A program made the position numbers and the translations under genes. From Deltaproteobacteria bacterium (lineage in GTDB: Bacteria > Desulfobacterota > Desulfobacteria > Desulfobacterales > JAFDMD01), in the NCBI GenBank assembly GCA_019306185.1, contig JAFDMD010000004.1, positions 1 through 45,155 of the forward strand: a stretch of DNA of 45,155 bases. Reading direction: 5' to 3'. Under the pieces are notes generated by a model that was given only the letters and a program-made list of their open reading frames with translations, searched no databases and had not been told where the DNA came from. Below, piece by piece: positions 1,972-33,119 of the stretch (positions are counted from its first letter, which is position 1; every line of letters starts with the position of its first letter).

Positions 1972-3228
1972 CTATTCTCTTATTTGCCCGTCTCCTATTA
2001 TAACGAATTTTTCGCAGGTAAGCTCTTCAAGCCCCATTGGTCCGAAAGCATGCAGTTTTGATGTGCTTATTCCTATTTCGGCTCCAAGTCCAAGCTCCCC
2101 GCCGTCGTTAAAGCGCGTGGAAGCGTTTACAAATACGCCGGACGAATCAACCTGTTTTACAAAATATCTCGCGCTTTGAATATTTTTGGTAATTATTGCC
2201 TCGCTATGATTTGAACCGTATTTTTTTATATGAAGTATTGCCTCGTCTATATTGTTTACGATTTTTACCGATAGAGTAAGATTAAGATATTCCGCATGCC
2301 AATCCTCTTCCGTAGCCGATTTTATTTCCGGCAAAATAGAGGCGGTTTTTTTACATCCTCTTATTTCCACTTTTGCTTTTTTAAAAGCGGAATGTAATTT
2401 CGGCAAAAATGTATCGGCTATATCCGTATGTATAAGCAAAGTTTCCATAGCGTTGCATACGCCCGGTCTTTGAACTTTGGCGTTTAGACATATTTTTTCC
2501 GCTGTTTGATATTCGGCGCTTTTATCTATAAATGTATGGCATACCCCTTTATAATGTTTTAGAACCGGAATTTTGGAATTTTGCACAACATATCTTATTA
2601 AGCCTTCGCCTCCGCGCGGTATTATCAGATCGATATGCTCTTCCTGTTTTAAAAGTATGGTTACGGCTTCTCTATCCTTGCTTCCCAACGTCTGAATTGC
2701 ATCGATAGGAAGATTTGTTTCGGCAAGCCCTTCTTTAAATATTTTTACAAGCGCCTGATTGGAATTAAAGGCTTCGGAGCCTCCTTTTAGTATAACCGCA
2801 TTGCCGGATTTTAAGCATAACCCCGCGGCGTCTATGGTAACGTTGGGTCTTGATTCATATATTATGCCGATTACTCCTATTGGAATTCTCATTTTAGAAA
2901 CTTCAAGCCCGTTTGGTCTTTTCCAAGTTTTTGTTATTCCGCCTACGGGATCTTCAAGAGAAGCGGCTTCTCTTAATCCGCCGGACATGCTTTTGATTAC
3001 CTTATCCGTTACGGCAAGTCTGTCTATCATAGCGTCGGACAAGCCGGATTTTTTTGCGTCTATCAGGTCTTTTTTATTCTCCGCTTTTATGTAATCTGCC
3101 TGCTTTTCTATTTTTTCGGCAATTGTTATTAATGCAAGATTTTTAATGCTTGTGTCTGCCGCCGCTATTTTATCGGAAGCCTCTTTTGCCTCTTTAGCCA
3201 ATAATATAATTTCTTTTTCTAAATTCAT
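1972..3228 (-). CDS. proA: Gamma-glutamyl phosphate reductase ProA
   Basis: NADPH-dependent reduction of L-glutamyl-5-phosphate to glutamate-5-semialdehyde in proline synthesis. The 418-residue protein has the full aldehyde-dehydrogenase-like fold signatures: the IPIGVIGIIYESRPNVT segment near residue 115, the LKGGSEAFNSN nucleotide region, IPRGGEGLIR, and the catalytic cysteine in NAKVQRPGVCNAMET. It ends with GPMGLEELT. Length is normal. The start has a clear AGGAG ribosome site (AGGAGTAAAATCATG). It begins only 15 bp after the stop of the hdrCB gene, so it is probably read from the same message as the Hdr/Qmo-like genes, an unusual setting for a proline gene. proB is not in the window. Confidence 0.97.
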   Translation of the reverse strand: MNLEKEIILLAKEAKEASDKIAAADTSIKNLALITIAEKIEKQADYIKAENKKDLIDAKKSGLSDAMIDRLAVTDKVIKSMSGGLREAASLEDPVGGITKTWKRPNGLEVSKMRIPIGVIGIIYESRPNVTIDAAGLCLKSGNAVILKGGSEAFNSNQALVKIFKEGLAETNLPIDAIQTLGSKDREAVTILLKQEEHIDLIIPRGGEGLIRYVVQNSKIPVLKHYKGVCHTFIDKSAEYQTAEKICLNAKVQRPGVCNAMETLLIHTDIADTFLPKLHSAFKKAKVEIRGCKKTASILPEIKSATEEDWHAEYLNLTLSVKIVNNIDEAILHIKKYGSNHSEAIITKNIQSARYFVKQVDSSGVFVNASTRFNDGGELGLGAEIGISTSKLHAFGPMGLEELTCEKFVIIGDGQIRE

Positions 3229-3243
3229 GATTTTACTCCTTTT

Positions 3244-4476
3244 TTAATCTAAAACCAAAGCGTCGGCAAAAACTTCCCAAAGATATTTTACCTGTAAGTT
3301 TTCCATTGCATACTCTTTTTTTAAACTGTTTATTTGTCCATGACAGCTATGACAAGGAACTATTACCATTTGAGCGCCCGACGCTTTTATTTGATCTATT
3401 TTTTTTCTGCCGTAATATATTCTTTCTTCGTTATATCCGGTTACAAGGGTTCCGCCGCCGCCGCCGCAGCAAAACTGATGATTTTCCGAAGGGTATGTAT
3501 CTATCCAATTTTCGCAGCAATGATCAAGTATTATGCGAGGCTCTTTATAATATCCGTATCCGAATAGTTTTTCCGATTTTCTGCCGTAATTGCAAGGATC
3601 ATGATATACCGATGGTATTCGGTTTTTACTTTTATCTAATTTTACTCTTTTTTCTTTTATATATTTTAAAAGCAGATCAAATACCGTATATGTATTGATT
3701 TTTTTTAATTCTTCGGGATAATATTTTTCAAGACCTAACCTGGTCGATAAATAGGCGTGTCCTCATTCGGGCCACAAAAGATTTTTTATCTCCAGACGTT
3801 TTATATTCTCCATTATTTTTGCCGTCATTTTTTTCATAGCGTCGTCGTCGCCAGTAAAAAGCCCCCAATTTGTTCCTTCCCAATTATCCGCCGGTATTGT
3901 CCAATCCTCTTTTGCGGCATAGAATATTTTCCATAGATGTTTTAGATCTTCGGTATGGGTATTTACAAGTTTGTTATGAACCGTCATCATCAGGTTTGCC
4001 CCCTTTTTATCCAAAAAGGCTTTAAAGTCGGCAAAACCGTCCTCTTCGGCAAGCTCTTCCCCTACGTCTTGAATTATAAATTCAAAATCCTCTTTTGGAA
4101 GTCTGAGGTTATTGCCTGTTTTTAATGCCGCGGAAAGCCCTTGATGAAGTATGCCCGGAACTTTGTCTCTGTCTCTCATTCCTCTGATTGTTCGGACTAT
4201 TTTGGTTATAGGTATCTCCATAGGGCATAATTCTTCGCACTTGCCGCACATTGTGCATATCCAGCTCCATTTTGTTTCTACGGCTTCATTGTTTTGCCCT
4301 AACGACGCTATCCTTATAAGCTTTCTCGGATCAAACCCGTCAATTCCGGCTACCGGACATGCCGAAGAGCATATTCCGCAGGTAATACATTTATCTTGAG
4401 ATAGGTTGTAATTATTAAAATATTGATGATTAAATTCGGATAAAATGATTCTTTCATTTTTTGCTGCTGATTCCAT
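3244..4476 (-). CDS. HdrC-HdrB fusion (DsrK/HdrD-like), probable selenoprotein with in-frame TGA
   Basis: An iron-sulfur protein of 410 residues if the TGA at 3763-3765 is read as residue 238. The N-terminal HdrC part has two [4Fe-4S] motifs, C30xxC33xxC36xxxC40P and C74xxC77xxC80xxxC84P. The C-terminal CCG part has HDPC295, the CCG motif QFCCG (C336, C337) followed by a run of glycines, and C375HSC378. These ligate the non-cubane clusters of HdrB-type thiol/disulfide or electron-bifurcation modules. The TGA sits in W-P-E-(TGA)-G-H-A-Y, where DsrK/HdrD relatives have Cys in an E-C-G-H-A signature. The frame continues without any shift to TAA at 3244-3246. With a SECIS-like hairpin just downstream, selenocysteine is the best reading. 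Without readthrough the product stops at 237 residues and lacks the CCG centre. The ribosome site AGAGGAAA precedes the ATG. It lies downstream of the two flavoproteins and 15 bp before proA. Confidence 0.88.
3724..3751 (-). other. Candidate bacterial SECIS hairpin after the hdrCB TGA
   Basis: Directly 3' of the TGA (3763-3765) the coding strand can form a 4-bp upper stem GACC/GGUC closed by a six-base loop AGGUUA. Below it is a two-base UU bulge, then U-C/G-A pairs and a weak A-U lower stem. The loop starts about 21 nt after the UGA and has G in its second and third positions. This agrees with what is known for bacterial SECIS elements (a loop G, a bulged U, roughly 16-37 nt spacing). The short stem makes this suggestive rather than conclusive on its own. 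Confidence 0.55.
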
Positions 4477-4839: not shown

Positions 4840-6339
4840 TTACGCTTCTATTTTTTCTATAAATTTGTTTATATTTTCGATTAATGCGCCGGACATGTTG
4901 GAAGTCGATGCAAAAATAGCGATCTTCTCTTTTCCTATTCCGGTTTTATCAAAAAATTTCGATATGTATTCGACTCTGTTTTTAGCGTGGATATTTCCTG
5001 TTTCCGAATAACAATTATCTTCGCAACAGGTAAGAAGCATTACCCCTAACGCCCCTTTTTTGAATTCCGAATATATCTTATCTACCGATACGCTTCCCGC
5101 GCATGGAACTTCTATGATTTTTAATTGTTTCGGAAGTTTTATTCCTTCGGCATAAATACTTTTGATAGCCGGGACTGCGGAGCGAGAGCAGCAAAACGCC
5201 GTAATAAAAAATTGTTTTTCAGGCTCTTTTATAACGGAGATTGTTTTATTAAGGTTGGCAAATTGTATCGCTTGTTTCGGGCATTCCGCAATACATAATC
5301 CGCATGCTTCGCATGCTTCTTTTACTATTTGAGGTCTTGGTTCGGTTATTATCGCTTTATGATTGCATAAGCGATAGCAGGTAAGGCAGTATATACATTT
5401 ATCCGTATCAATTTCCGCTTTTTCGTTTATATTTATATCAAGATTTCGGAGATTTAAAATTTCCAAAATAACCAAATCTATATCTTGGTTTTTGATTTCT
5501 TTGTCCGCAATTTTTCTTGAAGTTCCTATAACAAAAATCCCTTTGCGATTTGTAAATATCGGGAAACGCCAAACATTATTTGCCTGCGCAAAACCGTTTT
5601 CGTCCATATCAAGCCGTAATATCGAGGTTATCTTTTTAAGATTTGGATCCGGCAAAATTTTTTCGTCCGTTATAATAATATCCGGAATTATTCTAATGTC
5701 TTGCATTGATATTTCATCAGCGCAGTCTATTACGCTTTTTTTATTGTCGGCTCGAACTATTTCCGGATTTGTCTCCGTAAATTTAAAATATATAACCCCC
5801 GCCTTTTTTGTTTCGCTATATAAAGCTTCAAGGTTATTTGCGCCGACCTTTAAATTGTTGACAAGTATATATATATTTTCAACCTTTTCTTTTGCCATTA
5901 ATAATGAAGCCTGCATTATTTCTTTTAAAATAATGGGGTTGGAATCCTTTTTTATGCCTGCAAGCAAAACTGCGGTTTTGATTTTTTCAAAAGAATTGCA
6001 GTTTTTTAATTCGGATAAGGATATAATATCGGAGCTTCTCGATAGTCCGTAATCTTCAAAATTCGGTTTTCGGATAGCGTCTTCGGCAATAATGATTTCG
6101 GAAGCGTCAATTTTTGTTTCTTTATTCTTTATTTTTACAGATAGCCGAAAATTTCCGGCCGTTCCTTTGCAAGAAAGGATTTTGGCTTCCGATATTATTT
6201 TGATATGTTCGGATTCAATAGTTTTATTAGTTTTTTTTGAAGATATTATAACTGTTTTGATATTTTCCGCCGCAAGGCTTTCCGCAGCATGAGCCGCATA
6301 TTTTCCGCTTCCTATTATCAGCGCGTTTGATTCGTTCAT
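4840..6339 (-). CDS. QmoB/HdrA-like flavoprotein with C-terminal MvhD domain
   Basis: A 499-residue electron-transfer protein. The N-terminus has a nucleotide-binding loop (ALIIGSGKYAAHAAESL) of an HdrA/QmoB-type FAD domain. The middle is poorly conserved. Around residues 320-370 there are two ferredoxin motifs, CIYCLTCYRLC and CEACGLCIAECP. The C-terminal about 110 residues are an MvhD/FlpD-like domain (FCCSRSA, then VPCAGSVSVDKI and LLTCCEDNCYSETGN), which takes electrons in HdrA-MvhD and QmoB proteins. It is clearly shorter than typical QmoB (about 750 residues). It sits between the QmoA-like gene and hdrCB on the same strand, and the three likely form a soluble Hdr-like complex. The electron donor is not evident. 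A family C-like hairpin leader with AGGAAA precedes the start. Confidence 0.85.
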   Translation of the reverse strand: MNESNALIIGSGKYAAHAAESLAAENIKTVIISSKKTNKTIESEHIKIISEAKILSCKGTAGNFRLSVKIKNKETKIDASEIIIAEDAIRKPNFEDYGLSRSSDIISLSELKNCNSFEKIKTAVLLAGIKKDSNPIILKEIMQASLLMAKEKVENIYILVNNLKVGANNLEALYSETKKAGVIYFKFTETNPEIVRADNKKSVIDCADEISMQDIRIIPDIIITDEKILPDPNLKKITSILRLDMDENGFAQANNVWRFPIFTNRKGIFVIGTSRKIADKEIKNQDIDLVILEILNLRNLDININEKAEIDTDKCIYCLTCYRLCNHKAIITEPRPQIVKEACEACGLCIAECPKQAIQFANLNKTISVIKEPEKQFFITAFCCSRSAVPAIKSIYAEGIKLPKQLKIIEVPCAGSVSVDKIYSEFKKGALGVMLLTCCEDNCYSETGNIHAKNRVEYISKFFDKTGIGKEKIAIFASTSNMSGALIENINKFIEKIEA

Positions 6340-6476: not shown

Positions 6477-7496
6477 TTATTCTATCCGATCGAAATATTT
6501 TATAACGCCTCGAGCGGCGGATGCTCCGCTTACGGACGCCTCTTCTATATTCATAGGACATAACGCCGCTCCCGCGGCAAAAATTCCGCTTTTTATAGCC
6601 TCGTTTATTTTCGGCTTGCTTATAAAGCCGGTATTTTCGGTTTTAAGATTAAGCATTCGGACTATTTTCGGCTTATTAGGCGTAATTCCTACGGATAAAA
6701 TAGCCATATCAACCGCCTCATCTATGGATTTATCCGTTTTTTTATCAAAATATGTAATAAGCAAATCTTTCTCCGCTTCAAAAATATCCGCTGGAATAGC
6801 TCTTATCATTTTTATCTTATCTTTTATTTTTTTATAATAAGAGTTAAAATCTTTGCCGAAGTTTTGAATATCTATATAAAAAAATAGTATTTCCGTATCA
6901 GGGCTTTTATCCTTTATAAGAGACGCCATTCTAATAGCCGAACCGCAACATGTTTTTGAACACCATAAATGATTAAGCGAGGCGTCTCTGCTGCCTACGC
7001 ACTGAATAAAAGCTATTTTATTCGGATTTTTTTTGTCCGAGGGCTTTTGAATTCGGTTCTTTTCCCTAATCATATTTTCAAGTTCAAAATTGGTTATTAC
7101 ATTATCAAATCTTTTATATCCGTAAGGTTTTAACGCCGGATTAAAAAGGGTAAAGCCCGTAGCCGTTATAACCGCGTCGCAGGATATATTAAATTGTTTT
7201 GCTTTATTTTCCGCTATTGCCTTAAAAGGAGCGGCGGCGGATATTTTTTTTATAACGGAGTTTGTAAAAATCTCTATATTGCCGTCCGTTTTTGCCTTTT
7301 GCAATTTGTCTTCGGCTATACAAGCGCCGCATTTTACGCATTTTCCCGCGGCTTTGCAGGTAAAAGAGGCGGCATGTCCTCCGGGGTAAGAGGCTTTTTC
7401 TATAACTATTGTTTTGACGCCGTTTTTTGAAAGCAAAAGAGCGGCGGAAAGCCCCGCTACGCCGGCGCCTACTATAAGAACTTTTTTATCGGTCAT
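6477..7496 (-). CDS. QmoA/HdrA-like FAD-dependent electron-transfer subunit
   Basis: A 339-residue FAD protein. It has an N-terminal dinucleotide-binding loop GAGVAGLSAALLLSKNG, the GGHAASFTC region typical of HdrA/QmoA, a CVKCGAC cysteine cluster near residue 55, the HdrA signature IQCVGSRDASLNHLWCS with TCC following, and a C-terminal FAD motif GIFAAGAALCPMNIEEASVSG. It is somewhat shorter than usual QmoA proteins (about 400 residues) and much shorter than methanogen HdrA, and it lacks extra ferredoxin domains. It is the first gene of a minus-strand operon running to a QmoB/MvhD-like protein, the selenoprotein-like HdrCB and proA. Known relatives pass electrons between soluble donors, disulfides or quinones. 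No membrane QmoC and no apr or dsr genes are in the window, so the physiological partner is unknown. Confidence 0.87.
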   Translation of the reverse strand: MTDKKVLIVGAGVAGLSAALLLSKNGVKTIVIEKASYPGGHAASFTCKAAGKCVKCGACIAEDKLQKAKTDGNIEIFTNSVIKKISAAAPFKAIAENKAKQFNISCDAVITATGFTLFNPALKPYGYKRFDNVITNFELENMIREKNRIQKPSDKKNPNKIAFIQCVGSRDASLNHLWCSKTCCGSAIRMASLIKDKSPDTEILFFYIDIQNFGKDFNSYYKKIKDKIKMIRAIPADIFEAEKDLLITYFDKKTDKSIDEAVDMAILSVGITPNKPKIVRMLNLKTENTGFISKPKINEAIKSGIFAAGAALCPMNIEEASVSGASAARGVIKYFDRIE

Positions 7497-26032: not shown

Positions 26033-29000
26033 CTATATTCTTTTCATTCGTTGCATTTCTTGTTTATATATGTCTTGAATTGAAATTTTATTTTTACAAT
26101 CCATTTTTTCAAGTAGCAACCGATTTATCAATTTAACATTATTTGATTTTGATAATGTTTCCGCAGACGAACTAAAACCGTTATTCGAAATTACTATCAG
26201 CTTAAATTGTTTATCAAACTTTTTTTCATAATAATTTTTTGCAGCGTAAACCTCTTGAACAGCGCCATTGCCAATTGAAGTTTTACTCTGCTTTACTTGA
26301 ATTAAATAATTTTCGCCTTCTTTTATAGCAACTACATCAACGCCTTTATCATTTGATAAAGGCGTTAAGCAAGCCTGAAACCCTTGTTTTGAATAAAGAA
26401 CTGCAATATACGCTTCAAACAGGTTCGGTCGTAACGCGTCAATTTCTTTCATTGTTAAAGGAATTTGTTTACTTTTTGCGTTAAACCCGAAAACGCTTTC
26501 AAAAATTTCATTCGGTTTTACCTCTGTTTGCTCTGTAGGGAATAATGTATTTCGAGATAGCTCTTTTTTTCTATTAAGAAGCTTATCAAGAAGCAAATCA
26601 AATGTTTCAAACTCATCCGAAACTGCCATTAAATAATAAACGTAAACATCTTTTTGTTGTCCTATTCTGTATGCTCTATCTGTCGCTTGTTCCTCTTTTG
26701 CGGGATTCCAATGGCGCGAATAATGAATTACATGATTGGCTTTTGTTACGTTTAAACCAATGCCTGCGGATAGCTGGGACATTATAATTACGTTAAAACC
26801 TTTTTTTGCCTCAAACCGATCTATAGTCTGCTGTCTGCTTAACTTTGAATTTTTCTTATTTTTTTTAGTTGCAGGGGTATCTCCGTTTATGATGCTGGAA
26901 TAAATTTTAAAATAATCGGATATTACTTTTTGCAGCATCCTTTGTGTCTGTTTTCTATCGGCAAATACTATTACCTTATCCTTTTTTTCTTCAATATTTT
27001 TCAAAAGATCAACTAATATTTGCAGTTTAGCGGAAGTAGCTACAAGCTCTTCGGATTTGAAATTATAAATTTGACTATCCGGTAGAAACGGATGATCGGA
27101 AATGTCTCTAATTGCCCAAAGCATTTTTAAAGTATTAGCCCCGCTCGAATTATTACTTTTTGCCAGATCAATTTCATTCTTATATCTTTCGAGTTGTTTT
27201 TTAGGCATCTGTCTTTTGATTTTTGAATTTTCATTATCGAATTTTTTCGGCAAATCTTTCGCAACATCAAGTTTTAATCTGCGCATAATAAAATTTCCTA
27301 TTCTGCCGCGAACTTTTTCTCCGAGTTCTTTAATATCCGTCTCTTTTTTCTTTAAAGGATGCTGAAACTCTTTGACAAAATCTTTTCCGCTTCCTAAAAG
27401 CCCCGGAACTGAAAAATCCATAATACACCAAAGATCAACAAGCGTATTTTCAACCGGCGTTCCTGTCATTGCAACCTTAAAATCGGCTTTTAACGCCTTA
27501 CAAACTCCGGTAATTAAGGTTCCGGGAGTTTTAATCTTTTGCGCTTCGTCTAAAGCGACAACAGCATAATCTATGGCGCCCAAATTTAATTGATAATTCC
27601 TCAAAGTTTCGTAATTTGTTAAAATAATATGTTTTTTTTGCAGGCTTTCAATATCTTTTTTGTTGGTTTTTTTACTCAGCCCGCTTTTTCCATAAAGCCG
27701 AGTTAAAGAAAGGCTTTGCGGCGAAAAAAACTTTTTATATTCGTTTTCCCAATTCTCAAGCAGAGTTACCGGAGCTACAATCAGATAAGGTTTTAAATTT
27801 TGACTGACATTGGCATGCCATTCGATAAAATAAAGGAGCTGTAAGGTTTTGCCTAATCCCATATCGTCTGCAAGCAAGCATCCGCTTAAATTTTTTTGTT
27901 GCAGAGTTTGCAGCCATGCAATTCCTTTAACCTGATGCTCTTTTAATACTATGTTTTGATAAAGATTTTTAACCGGCGAAAAACCGAATTCGCTTATTTC
28001 AGGTAGATTCCAATTTTCAACATATTCCAAAAAATCGACGTTCTCTTTAATTATTAAAACCTTATCCTCTTTTTTACTAATAGGTTCTTTAGGGTTTTCA
28101 AGCTGTTTTTTAGCGATTGGAATAAATTTTTCCGCGTCGTCAATAAATATCTCCACTCCTTTCCATTCAAAAAATTCTTTTTCGCTTTTGATAGCGGCTT
28201 CTTTTTCCGCCTCAAACTCTTTAAGTTCGATAGAGGTTTTAAAATTAATTCTTTTTTCGCCGTCAAGCCTATCTTTAATTACAATTCCGGGAATCCATTC
28301 GGATTTGTAAGGACAAATAAAGGAGTAAAATTTTGGTTTGTAAATCCCAATCTCTTTTACTCGCTCGCTGTAAAAAACGGAAAGATCAAGCGTTTCATTA
28401 TCAAAAAATTTTTCGGGGCGTTCAACTATTTCATCTATCTCGTCTTTGCTATCAATTCTTCTTTTGGCTTTTATTCTTTCGAGCCCTTTTTTCTGTTTTT
28501 CGTCAATAACAATTCTTGTTCTGTTGCCCTTGTTATCTTGTATATTATAAACCGCTTTTATTTTTGGGAAAATATCAAAAGACTTAACAAATCGGGTTTT
28601 ATTTTCAATATCAATATCCGGAATAATTTCAAGAGTTCCGTCTTTAAATGTAAGGTCTATTTTTATCTTATCCGGGCGGTAAACATTTTCGCCCTCTAAG
28701 TAGCCGTCCAAAATAGCCGCCGCTTTTTTTGAAAAAGATTTTATATCTGCAAATCGTTTTAAATTATTAATAGAAGTTCTTTTGTTTTTTGGCAGCAAAT
28801 TAAATTCTTCAAGCGCTTTACAAACCAAAAATTGATTTTCGGAAAGCATATAACGGCGTTTTTCAATATCTATAATGGGTCCGTTGAGTCGCGCATTAAA
28901 ACGGTTTCCATTAGGCGTAAAATCATAAAATCCGTATTTGAATTTAAAATCGGACTGATTTAACTGCCCGTCAGATTCTATATAGATTTCATACGGATAT

Positions 29001-29239
29001 TGATCCGGCAAAGATAAAATTCTTTTTTCAATATCGGTAAGTTTTAAAATTTCCGCAGCTTCAGCTTCGTATCTATCCGTTTTTATTTCCGCAAAGCCAT
29101 TATCGGCAAGTTCGTTAAGAATTGAAATCTGAGATAAGTTTTCGTTTTCAAACTTATTCCATTCCAAAACCGGAATTCTCTTTTCGGTTTCGTCAATAAT
29201 AAAAAATAAAAAAATATTTGTATAATCCCACTTAAACAT
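26033..29239 (-). CDS. zorD: Zorya ZorD: SNF2-family helicase with Mrr-like nuclease domain
   Basis: A 1068-residue effector of type I Zorya. The N-terminal about 430 residues have no motif I can name. The SNF2 motor follows: KEHQVKGIAWLQ, Walker A LADDMGLGKTLQ, LIVAPVTLLENW, the DEAQ box VALDEAQKIK, MTGTPVEN, and in the second RecA fold VIVFADRKQTQRML, QLSAGIGLNVTKANHVIHY and ATDRAYRIGQ. After residue 920 there is a restriction-endonuclease-type domain (FEAYIAVLYSKQGF, then DKGVDVVAIKEG and YLIQVKQSK), that is D-(x)n-QxK as in Mrr. In known systems ZorD is recruited to phage DNA and degrades it. It overlaps zorC by 8 bp. Both catalytic centres appear intact. Confidence 0.94.
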   Translation of the reverse strand: MFKWDYTNIFLFFIIDETEKRIPVLEWNKFENENLSQISILNELADNGFAEIKTDRYEAEAAEILKLTDIEKRILSLPDQYPYEIYIESDGQLNQSDFKFKYGFYDFTPNGNRFNARLNGPIIDIEKRRYMLSENQFLVCKALEEFNLLPKNKRTSINNLKRFADIKSFSKKAAAILDGYLEGENVYRPDKIKIDLTFKDGTLEIIPDIDIENKTRFVKSFDIFPKIKAVYNIQDNKGNRTRIVIDEKQKKGLERIKAKRRIDSKDEIDEIVERPEKFFDNETLDLSVFYSERVKEIGIYKPKFYSFICPYKSEWIPGIVIKDRLDGEKRINFKTSIELKEFEAEKEAAIKSEKEFFEWKGVEIFIDDAEKFIPIAKKQLENPKEPISKKEDKVLIIKENVDFLEYVENWNLPEISEFGFSPVKNLYQNIVLKEHQVKGIAWLQTLQQKNLSGCLLADDMGLGKTLQLLYFIEWHANVSQNLKPYLIVAPVTLLENWENEYKKFFSPQSLSLTRLYGKSGLSKKTNKKDIESLQKKHIILTNYETLRNYQLNLGAIDYAVVALDEAQKIKTPGTLITGVCKALKADFKVAMTGTPVENTLVDLWCIMDFSVPGLLGSGKDFVKEFQHPLKKKETDIKELGEKVRGRIGNFIMRRLKLDVAKDLPKKFDNENSKIKRQMPKKQLERYKNEIDLAKSNNSSGANTLKMLWAIRDISDHPFLPDSQIYNFKSEELVATSAKLQILVDLLKNIEEKKDKVIVFADRKQTQRMLQKVISDYFKIYSSIINGDTPATKKNKKNSKLSRQQTIDRFEAKKGFNVIIMSQLSAGIGLNVTKANHVIHYSRHWNPAKEEQATDRAYRIGQQKDVYVYYLMAVSDEFETFDLLLDKLLNRKKELSRNTLFPTEQTEVKPNEIFESVFGFNAKSKQIPLTMKEIDALRPNLFEAYIAVLYSKQGFQACLTPLSNDKGVDVVAIKEGENYLIQVKQSKTSIGNGAVQEVYAAKNYYEKKFDKQFKLIVISNNGFSSSAETLSKSNNVKLINRLLLEKMDCKNKISIQDIYKQEMQRMKRI

Positions 29240-30647
29240 TTATGCCAACCCTGTTTTTCATCCAACCTAAAAATACCCGTTCCCACTCCATAACTCCATC
29301 GCTATGGGATAAACGCCCTTCGTCCGAATAATCATATAAGTGATAACCGCTTCTACGAACCAACATAGGTAGGCTGCCATCTCTTAACGACTCTACATTA
29401 TGATAATTTCTATCCATAGAAGGCGAGTTTATAGAATTTTGTTTATAAGCATAAAAAGCATACCCGGGATCGCTGAATTCAATAAATTTATAATTATTAA
29501 CATGCATAAAAAAAGCGGATACCTGTTTTTTGCCGGAAGTTACGCTAAAACGGCTATCTACAAATTCGGCAATTCTTTTATCCTGTTTCAACCTATTTTT
29601 AATATTTAAAGGTCCGAATACTTTAAATGCGGTAATACGCGGGGATAATTCCAACCAAAAATTTTTTCTTCTGTCGTCGTTAATATATTTTTCAAAAAAT
29701 ACGGTTATAAATTGTTTGGTAATCCATCCGTTTAAAATCTCTTTCGCTTTTTTTATATCTGCTTTTTCCTTTTCGCTTGCGCCTTTAAAAGCCGCCCAGT
29801 TGCTTGCAATTGCAGGGTCGCCCACAAATTCAAACGCCATGCTTTTTACTTGTTCCTGCAAGTCTGCAAATTGCTCGTCCGCTTGAATTATTAATTTACT
29901 TACAACTTGTTTATAGGTTTCAGATTGGTTATGCTTTTTTAAAGCCTCATTTAAATCTTCTATAAAAAGGGGAAGCTTATTCTTTTGTTTTTCATAGTAG
30001 CTTAAAATTACTTTGGAAAAATAAGTGTAATTAAACCAGTTATCCGGAAGTTCTAAATATTGTGCGGCTTCTTTAATTGATTTATTTTTTAAAGCTAATG
30101 TATCACAGAGTTCCAAATCTCCTTTTTCATAGTCAAAAAATTTCAGGTTTGATTGTAAAGATTTTAAGGTTTTTCTTCCGCCTTTGTATAGTTTTAACCT
30201 TTTAAATATAAAATTTCCGAGTCTGTCTTTATCCTTTTTTTCCCAATTTTTAAGATAACAAACGATTAATCCGTAAAAATAAGAATCCCGCCAATTTTTC
30301 TCAAAAATTTCAATAACCAAATCAAGTTCGTCCGGGCTGCCATATATTGAAGCAATACGGTTTTCGGAATAATCAAGAGAATAGGTAAGAGTTCTTATTT
30401 CTCTTTTGTCAAAATTATCCAAAGAAAAATTGCCGGATTTTAAACTATTTTTAAATTTTCTAAAAACCTCCGGAATTGAATTTTTACCCTTAAATTCAAA
30501 TAGACTTACGCCGAACTTACGCGTTATGTTTTTAAGGTTATCCATTCTGCTTTCATACCGATTTATACGCTTTAAGGTATTATTTGCGTTCGGCTTCATA
30601 TCGCCGGGCGAAAATTTAAAGTTTAATATTTCGGATGCTGTTTTCAC
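29232..30647 (-). CDS. zorC: Zorya ZorC (EH-signature protein)
   Basis: A 471-residue cytoplasmic protein in the position of ZorC between zorB and zorD. It is alpha-helical and charged, without membrane segments. The C-terminal part (FMHVNNYKFIEFSDPGYAFY, then RRSGYHLYDYSDEGRLSHSD and VMEWERVFLGWM) carries the conserved glutamate and histidine region for which the EH-signature domain is named. In type I Zorya, ZorC acts with ZorD downstream of the ZorAB membrane complex and binds DNA. It shares its first base with the last base of zorB and overlaps zorD by 8 bp, which indicates tight translational coupling. Sequence alone would not identify it, so the call rests on both context and the C-terminal motif. 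Confidence 0.85.
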   Translation of the reverse strand: MKTASEILNFKFSPGDMKPNANNTLKRINRYESRMDNLKNITRKFGVSLFEFKGKNSIPEVFRKFKNSLKSGNFSLDNFDKREIRTLTYSLDYSENRIASIYGSPDELDLVIEIFEKNWRDSYFYGLIVCYLKNWEKKDKDRLGNFIFKRLKLYKGGRKTLKSLQSNLKFFDYEKGDLELCDTLALKNKSIKEAAQYLELPDNWFNYTYFSKVILSYYEKQKNKLPLFIEDLNEALKKHNQSETYKQVVSKLIIQADEQFADLQEQVKSMAFEFVGDPAIASNWAAFKGASEKEKADIKKAKEILNGWITKQFITVFFEKYINDDRRKNFWLELSPRITAFKVFGPLNIKNRLKQDKRIAEFVDSRFSVTSGKKQVSAFFMHVNNYKFIEFSDPGYAFYAYKQNSINSPSMDRNYHNVESLRDGSLPMLVRRSGYHLYDYSDEGRLSHSDGVMEWERVFLGWMKNRVGINV

Positions 30648-31342
30648 TATTTTTTTTGGCTGAATTCTAAAATTTTATCAATCTGTTTTTCGGCGTTTGT
30701 GCGGATTCTAAATTCAACTCTTCGGTTTAAGTCTCTTCCGCGGCTGTAATTATTATCCGCAATAGGCTTGCTGTATGAAAGACCGTTTGCAGTTAAATTT
30801 TCTTGAACCCAAAATTTGGTTTCGCCGTTTATTTTAGTGTTTTCCAAAACAAAATTCAAAACGCTTCGAGTTCTGTTTTGAGATAACTCCATGTTATAAT
30901 AATAACCTCCTATATTATCCGTATGCCCTTCTATTCTTATCTCTTCAATATTTTCCTTAAACCCTCGCCTTGCCAAAACCTTTACATAACGCGGAAAAAA
31001 ATTTTGTAAAATTATTTTAAAAGCCTCTTTTAATTCATATTTTCCCGTTTCAAAAAGAACGTCCGGCTCTTTAAACCTAATTGCTATTTTTTCCCGATCA
31101 ATTTCCGCATTCCATTTTATCAAATCATCTTTAAATTCAATCAACAGCTCTTTATAAAGATTATCTTTAATTGCCGTATATTGTTCTGCAATCTGCGATT
31201 TATTTTCAAATTCGTCCTGTAATCTTAAAAGAGCGGACGCCAAAAGCAGTATAAAAATAAATAGCAAAGCCGCCATTAAATCGCCGATTGAAAGGGCAAA
31301 AGGATTTTCCGTATCTCCTATTTCAATATACTCGTTTCTCAT
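30647..31342 (-). CDS. zorB: Zorya ZorB: MotB/OmpA-domain stator-like protein
   Basis: A 231-residue membrane protein. One transmembrane helix lies near residues 20-40 (GDLMAALLFIFILLLASALL) with an aspartate (D21) at its start, the position of the ion-carrying Asp of MotB/ZorB. A linker is followed by an OmpA/MotB peptidoglycan-binding domain: VLFETGKYELKEAFK, then IRIEGHTDNIGGYYYNMELS, NRTRSVLNFVLE and GRDLNRRVEFRI. In Zorya, ZorA5B2 forms an ion-driven inner-membrane motor that senses envelope perturbation by phage. It is immediately downstream of zorA (adjacent bases) and touches zorC. The OmpA signature residues for peptidoglycan binding (GHTDN and NRRVEFRI) are intact. Confidence 0.94.
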   Translation of the reverse strand: MRNEYIEIGDTENPFALSIGDLMAALLFIFILLLASALLRLQDEFENKSQIAEQYTAIKDNLYKELLIEFKDDLIKWNAEIDREKIAIRFKEPDVLFETGKYELKEAFKIILQNFFPRYVKVLARRGFKENIEEIRIEGHTDNIGGYYYNMELSQNRTRSVLNFVLENTKINGETKFWVQENLTANGLSYSKPIADNNYSRGRDLNRRVEFRIRTNAEKQIDKILEFSQKK

Positions 31343-33119
31343 TTAAGATTTAATTTTTCTTTCATTAAACTTGTCTAATTGCTCGGTTAGCCCTTCTAAA
31401 ATATCTTCCTGTTTATCTATTGCTCCCGCAAGCGCATCGGCTGATTTTTTAAGCTCGTCTGTATAGTTATCTAAAAACTTTTTAACGCTTTCATCAATTG
31501 TGTTCGTATAATCGGATAATCCTGTTTTGATCTGATTAAAAATTGATTCTAATCCTTTTTCAATTATTCCGAATTTTTCGACATAATCTGCGGAAACCTC
31601 TTTTGAACTCAAAAGCGATTCTTGTATCTCTTTGATTGTTTTTGAGTTGTTATCGAAAAACTGCATCTGGGCGGTTTTAAAATCATCAAAGGAGTTTTTA
31701 AAAGTCTCGGACGAATTATTTATATTGTCGGAAATTAATTTCAGTTGTTCCGCCGTTGAATTAAACCCGTCTTGAACTTTGCCGAATTTTGAAATTGTTT
31801 CCGTTACATTTGTTGATAAGCCGTTCATTTTTTCAATGCTTATATTAAAAGCGCTCAATAACTTGTCCGAAACCTGCATATTTTCGGATTGCTTTGTTAT
31901 TAAAACCTCCTGCCCTATTTGCAATTCGCCGACTCTGTTTTTAAAAGTTTCGGTCATCCGTTCAACCTGATCTTTCATCTGTTCTGTAGATTCATTAGAT
32001 TGGGCAAGGGTTTGTTTGGCAATATCTTGAACTGTTCCTTGTAAATTTTTAAAATTTTCATTCAGGTTTTCGGTCATTTTAAAAAGATTATCTGGAAAAC
32101 TTGTAAGAGCGCCGCCTGCTTCCCCTAATATTACGGCAAGTTTTTCAAGTTCCGATTGTGTGGATCCGGATAGCGAGGTTTTGAATTCGTTAATCATTTT
32201 ATCTAAAGCCAATTCAAGATCTTTTACAATATTTTGAGTCATTTCGGTAGCCGGGTCTTTAAGCTTTTTACCGAGATTCTTAATCTCGCTTTTAAGCGAT
32301 TGTAGCTCCGGTATTACCCCTTTTTGAATCTGGTCGCTTAAAATAGCATTAAAACCGGCTTCTATTTTTTCCGCAAGATCGCTTGAAAATGCCTGCATTG
32401 CTTTTGATTGTTTTACCGATTCATTATAAATATCTCGAAAAATATTTGCAGGATTTACTCTATTATTATTTTCGTCGGTAAATATAAAATAATCGGAAAT
32501 AATTTTTTTCTGCTTTTCCAATTCGATATTGAGTTTATCTTCGCTGGAAATTTTATATTTTTCATCCAATCCTTCGTAGAATTCATAGATAGATTTACGC
32601 AAAGAGTTTATTTTGGTTTTTTCAATTAAGGTAAAAAGCAAAGAAGCAGCCATGCCATAGATCGAAGATACAAAAGCGGTTCCCATTCCGGAAAACAGGG
32701 TTTCAATGCTGTTTTTAATATCTTCGGTTGTTGTCGTGTTAAAATCGGTAATTCCAAAAGTTAATCCGCAAAATGTTCCTAAAATACCTATTCCGACAAG
32801 CAAGCTTGGAATTGCGGAAAGCAGTTTAAGGTTTATTTTGCTTGCGAGCAAACTTTTTTCGTTGAAAAAATCGTAAGAATAGCAGTCTGTTTTTTGTTCT
32901 CCATTAAAATCAAAAAAAGTTTTATTGTAATTTTCCCAAATTATTTTAAATTTTTTATCTTTTGCAATGGAGTTTTCCGAAATTTTTTTCAACCCTCTCT
33001 GTTTTATGAGCAAATAAACGCAAAAAGATACAAAAAAGGGTGATGGTTTCGCCGTCAAACTTAAAAAGAGATTTATAAGGAATAAGTTTGTCAATAAATC
33101 TACCAAGATGATCCGTCAT
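31343..33119 (-). CDS. zorA: Zorya ZorA: MotA/ExbB-like protein with long tail, 5' frameshift
   Basis: An inner-membrane motor protein of about 591 residues. A first hydrophobic segment (FFVSFCVYLLI) near residue 35 is followed by the MotA/TolQ/ExbB core (LLSAIPSLLVGIGILGTFCG, then LFSGMGTAFVSSIYGMAASL). After that comes a helical tail of more than 350 residues rich in E, N, K, T and Q, as in the intracellular ZorA tail. The best start, ATG 33119 with an AGGGA ribosome site, reads MTDHLGRFIDKLIPYKS- but is in another frame from the core. The two join perfectly (ETITLF-VSFCVYLL) if one T is removed from the T6 run at 33032-33037. Otherwise translation would need a TTG at 33106 without a ribosome site. 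A real frameshift, a sequencing error or programmed slippage are all possible. Confidence 0.9.

Follow-up and report, generated by a model that had tools for sequence, protein, structure and literature searches.

A 410-codon frame on the minus strand of the window (the whole 45,155-nucleotide stretch of DNA that was analysed) encodes an HdrC-HdrB fusion and is interrupted by one TGA. This in-frame TGA is real and almost certainly encodes selenocysteine in an electron-transfer protein. Judged from its sequence, we consider the product a genuine bacterial selenoprotein of the Fe-S oxidoreductase GlpC/HdrD family, which carries the motif UGH, with a probability of about 0.88. The gene, its recoding elements and its neighbours are as follows.

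3244..4476, minus strand: HdrC-HdrB (HdrD/GlpC-like) selenoprotein gene (hdrCB), 410 aa, Sec238; from translation, Pfam and homologue alignment
3763..3765, minus strand: in-frame TGA, codon 238, read as selenocysteine (WPE-U-GHAY); same codon in homologues
3728..3747, minus strand: bacterial-type SECIS stem-loop directly 3' of the UGA; from folding and homologue comparison
4840..6339, minus strand: hdrA_C-flpD, the HdrA C-terminal half with 2x[4Fe-4S] and an FlpD/MvhD domain, QmoB-like; from domains, order kept in near relatives
6477..7496, minus strand: hdrA_N, the FAD (thioredoxin-reductase-like) part of HdrA, QmoA-like; from domains, kept in near relatives
1972..3228, minus strand: proA (glutamate-5-semialdehyde dehydrogenase), 15 bases downstream; neighbour within the genus only

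Domains of the fusion and the place of Sec238

The preliminary description had reported the 410-codon frame with its one TGA at 3763-3765, and translation of the minus strand confirmed it; the strand itself had been left unstated, and a plus-strand reading of 3244-4476 was ruled out by its many stops. With TGA taken as a residue, the translation runs from an initial methionine to a final aspartate and a stop codon, with the TGA at codon 238 in the motif WPE-U-GHAY. Pfam placed Fer4_8/Fer4_17 at residues 27-88, where two ferredoxin-type [4Fe-4S] motifs make up an HdrC-like part, and the complete second CCG domain at residues 290-382. Residues ~160-285 form a degenerate first CCG half, and this N-terminal CCG copy has lost all of its cysteines except at the position occupied by U238. 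The cysteines C295, C336/C337, and C375/C378 are all present, as first described, and both Pfam and the homologues agree with the earlier reading of a DsrK/HdrD-like HdrC-HdrB fusion. The proposed layout of an HdrC part followed by CCG also stood (Fer4 at 27-88, CCG at 290-382), but the CCG motif is complete in the C-terminal half only.

A confident AlphaFold model of the fusion was obtained, with pLDDT 84.6 and pTM 0.84, and the nearest solved structures were mycobacterial EtfD (9ojn), HdrB, and HdrC. In EtfD, a linear 3Fe-4S cluster is ligated by Cys581, Cys584, and two further cysteines, and a noncubane 4Fe-4S cluster by Cys637, 672, 673, 709, and 712 together with His583 (PMC13083937). The cysteines of the noncubane cluster would correspond to C295, C336, C337, C375, and C378 of the fusion. 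The EtfD C-x-H-C motif probably corresponds to U238-G-H240-A241; the local alignment is weak here, and the correspondence is supported by a distant CCG protein of the same genome (L021), whose CxxC aligns at the U238 spot. Sec238 would then be the first Cys of the CxxC in the N-terminal CCG copy, equivalent to HdrB Cys78 and EtfD Cys581, and thus the sole remnant of the first cluster site. H240 may be the equivalent of EtfD His583 and may contact the noncubane cluster.

From the homology with HdrB and EtfD, we propose that C295, C336, C337, C375, and C378 bind a noncubane cluster, where Sec238 would serve as a reactive selenol towards a disulfide/thiol or sulfur substrate. The odds of such free-selenol chemistry are, in our estimate, roughly even. 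Alternatively, Sec238 could replace Cys as an Fe-S cluster ligand in the HdrB half and would then not be a free catalytic selenol. Its HdrB equivalent, Cys78, ligates iron. The same is true of EtfD Cys581, and the adjacent H240 matches His583, which is a ligand of the noncubane cluster (PMC13083937). However, three of the four EtfD D1-cluster ligands have no cysteine counterpart in the fusion, so that a separate D1 cluster seems impossible, and C295/C336/C337/C375/C378 are already enough for the noncubane cluster. We regard a ligand role as unlikely. As the other first-cluster residues are not cysteines, a reactive selenol is likelier than a ligand of a separate cluster.

Conservation of the codon, SECIS element and selenocysteine machinery

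Two genomes of the same genus (G001 and G002) carried versions of the gene that were 90% and 87% identical to it, with TGA at the same codon. Among 31 aligned homologues from the organism's own and related genomes, column 238 was U in 27 and C in four; the eight ferredoxin cysteines and C295, C336, C337, C375, and C378 were invariant. Codon 238 was TGA in 76 of 80 named homologues, Cys in three and Leu in one, which is the pattern of bacterial selenoproteins, an in-frame UGA where homologues have Cys. Within the Desulfobacterales group, members of the family normally have Sec at this codon. The suggestion that the column would be limited to Cys and Sec held for nearly all relatives and failed for one, L160 (JAJFVB010000225.1), which has Leu with the codon TTA in its DNA. 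Either L160 has genuinely lost the selenol, or its TTA arose from TGA through an error in a single base; if the base in this MAG is correct, the site does not strictly require Cys or Sec. The Cys homologues L044 and L045 showed PDCGGG in place of PEUGHA, having lost the motif histidine along with Sec.

In a tree of 60 rows, at least four Sec/Cys changes were forced on well-supported branches; the site has thus switched between the two residues, which is what a selenoprotein family should show. Upstream of the TGA, dN/dS was 0.14-0.16, and downstream 0.11-0.17, which points to equally strong purifying selection on either side.

SelB and Sec-tRNA would insert selenocysteine at the UGA under the direction of the downstream stem-loop, as the machinery and the conserved stem-loop suggest. 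The stem-loop of the window, UC-GACC-AGGUUA-GGUC-UUGA, has a loop that begins 22 nt past the UGA and a G at loop position 2. Folded singly, its free energy was no better than that of shuffles (z 0.42), and the element was therefore tested by comparison across homologues. The case for a putative SECIS, a stem-loop just past the UGA with an apical-loop G, rests on this comparison and not on the folding energy of the window's own sequence. In 96 Sec homologues, the region folded better than its own shuffles (mean z -1.5) and beat 84% of control windows from the same genes, whereas the region of six Cys homologues showed no better folding (z 0.2). In 87 of the 96 Sec homologues, but in only about 20% of shuffles, the stem reached 5 bp or more and a G occupied one of the first two loop positions. 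Compensatory stem variants were seen among the Sec homologues (GACCA/TGGTC, GACTA/TAGTC, CAACCCG/CGGGTTG, and CAGTCCG/CGGACTG). The G of the loop falls on the third, silent base of the Arg246 codon. This codon was NGG (AGG or CGG) in 94 of 96 homologues, compared with 36% of Arg codons elsewhere in the same genes, which shows that the RNA is under selection as well as the protein.

The draft genome comprises 170 contigs with a total of 2.46 Mb; it is 99% complete, and its contamination is estimated at 5.9%. Its nearest named relatives place the organism in the Desulfobacterales, and judging by dsrA and qmoC it is probably a sulfate reducer. All of selA, selB, selC, and selD, which the preliminary description had named as a check and which bacterial selenoproteins require, were found. 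A tRNA-Sec with anticodon TCA was present, SelA and SelD were matched with 585 bits and 350 bits, respectively (selD itself has an in-frame TGA), and one of two near-identical SelB genes, 636 aa each, scored 379 bits, with the cut-off at 242. The two SelB genes lie on separate contigs (L052:492-2402 and L053:1298-3208); given the estimated contamination, the pair reflects either a genuine duplication or the presence of another strain in the assembly. The conserved TGA codon, the Sec machinery, the SECIS and the purifying selection together bear out the original reading of UGA as selenocysteine.

If the TGA were a true stop, the product would be a 237-residue HdrC-like protein and the remainder would be separately translated or decaying. 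Standard gene calling would indeed stop the ORF at 3763, but the genome holds the Sec machinery and the part after the TGA is under the same purifying selection. The TGA also recurs at one codon in 76 of 80 homologues while the Cys homologues read straight through, and the stem-loop is present in Sec homologues and absent from Cys homologues; a true stop is very improbable. An error that turned TGC/TGT into TGA deserves still less credence, for although the assembly is a contaminated draft (170 contigs, 5.9%), the same TGA occurs in G001 and G002 of the same genus and in dozens of unrelated assemblies, among them those of isolates.

Neighbouring genes and likeness to known systems

The genes hdrA_C-flpD and hdrA_N lie upstream of hdrCB in the same direction, and no in-frame TGA was found when the two were scanned. 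The order hdrA_N, hdrA_C-flpD, hdrCB(U) was kept in most homologues at 59-90% identity; more distant Sec homologues were found beside Sec-containing hdrA and flpD/frhD genes instead. What varies here is the gene context, a trio with two selenium-free HdrA-like proteins that is conserved in Desulfobacterales; HdrA partners that are split and lack Sec depart only slightly from what is known of the family. Both proA and nadD follow hdrCB only within the genus, and proA is probably not part of the system.

The HdrC-HdrB selenoprotein and the two adjacent HdrA-like flavoproteins most likely form a cytoplasmic Hdr-type complex. Electrons would pass from FlpD/HdrA_C to the FAD of HdrA_N, then to the two [4Fe-4S] clusters of the HdrC half and on to the noncubane cluster. 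The flow from the HdrA-like partners is modelled on the HdrABC family.

A second Sec-rich cluster was observed elsewhere in the genome (L077, C108:1-12000). It consists of an hdrCB paralogue 37% identical to the window gene, flpD, an HdrA of ~1010 aa, a second flpD-type protein and an HdrA of ~1020 aa, with one in-frame TGA each. Within the window, four adjacent genes at 26033-33106 on the minus strand matched the Zorya anti-phage system in PADLOC (ZorA, ZorB, a weak ZorC, and ZorD with 1220 bits).

By published motif and gene context, the fusion is likened to the GlpC/UGH family (COG0247/PTHR43551), with the same UGH Sec motif and the same bacterial group. The Fe-S oxidoreductase (GlpC) selenoprotein family was described in a 2006 survey with a glpC-hdrA-frhD-frhG-frhA operon, in which several genes contain Sec (PMC1794560). 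Compared with that operon, the HdrA-like partners in the window are short, split, and Sec-free, and no hydrogenase gene lies next to them. In the tree, the window gene groups with Sec homologues whose hdrA(U)/frhD(U) surroundings resemble the published operon. A 2016 survey counted 47 Fe-S oxidoreductase-like selenoproteins in 31 organisms (PMC5029168), and the protein is also listed in PMC9312934. The motif printed for the 'Fe-S oxidoreductase-like protein' in a 2026 review is UGH (PMC13188914), the motif found here around Sec238.

In the available part of the 2009 genome description of Desulfobacterium autotrophicum HRM2, soluble HdrC-HdrB fusions are reported, one of which, HdrD4, has selenocysteine (PMC2702500). 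HdrD4 is likewise a soluble HdrC+HdrB protein with Sec from the same order, Desulfobacterales. That part of the source gives no position for its Sec, and HdrD4 probably shares the site. A MAG labelled Desulforapulum autotrophicum holds a UGH homologue of 54% identity (L116). Cultured relatives that carry a UGH homologue include Desulfopila aestuarii DSM 18488, Desulfogranum marinum DSM 2058, and Desulfacinum hydrothermale DSM 13146. The view that the gene was probably new or rare finds no support in these reports (PMC13188914, PMC1794560, PMC5029168, PMC2702500); the finding is real but not new, the UGH family having been known since the mid-2000s. A literature search for selenoprotein combined with DsrK found no papers.

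The best NCBIfam similarities were to DsrK, TmcB, and HmcF, membrane-complex subunits of sulfate reducers, with 143, 164, and 169 bits, respectively. Membership in these families was ruled out, as the scores are far under the curated cut-offs of 400, 735, and 750. For DsrK (NF045796) the score was 142.6 bits, and hdrA-like genes and proA stand where dsrMKJOP neighbours would be expected. The window gene has no adjacent membrane subunits and has Sec in place of Cys. A point of likeness is the ECGH motif, with Cys, in the DsrK-like protein of the same genome (C136).

Methanogen HdrB/HdrC and mycobacterial EtfD share the fold and the cluster cysteines of the ferredoxin and second CCG domains. In contrast to them, the first CCG copy is here reduced to a single Sec/Cys, there is no membrane part, and HdrA is split in two genes. 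HdrB is marked by two complete CCG motifs (CX31-39CCX35-36CXXC); in the fusion, the second alone is complete and the first is represented by U238.

The Qmo complex resembles the partner proteins: hdrA_C-flpD shares the domain order of QmoB, and the closest protein to hdrA_N in its own genome is QmoA (33% over 248 residues). However, the genome has separate true qmoABC genes, and the third subunit here is a soluble Sec-containing HdrCB, not the membrane-bound QmoC. The QmoC model (NF038018) matched with 47 bits in the ferredoxin part only, compared with a cut-off of 300 bits; a QmoC would also have a membrane part.

With a family first described some 20 years ago, the finding is a modest discovery. 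A frame that callers cut at 237 residues is nevertheless a full selenoprotein. Functions of such selenoprotein families are largely uncharacterised (PMC13188914), and Sec beside a probable noncubane cluster offers a testable idea for this one. Sec238 might also be a direct, exchangeable ligand of the noncubane [4Fe-4S] cluster or react at it, with the trio forming a distinct Desulfobacterales complex, which we hold to be more doubtful still than the simple ligand role. If true, the QmoA-like, QmoB-like, and HdrCB-Sec trio would transfer electrons as a complex whose Fe-S site is tuned by selenium.
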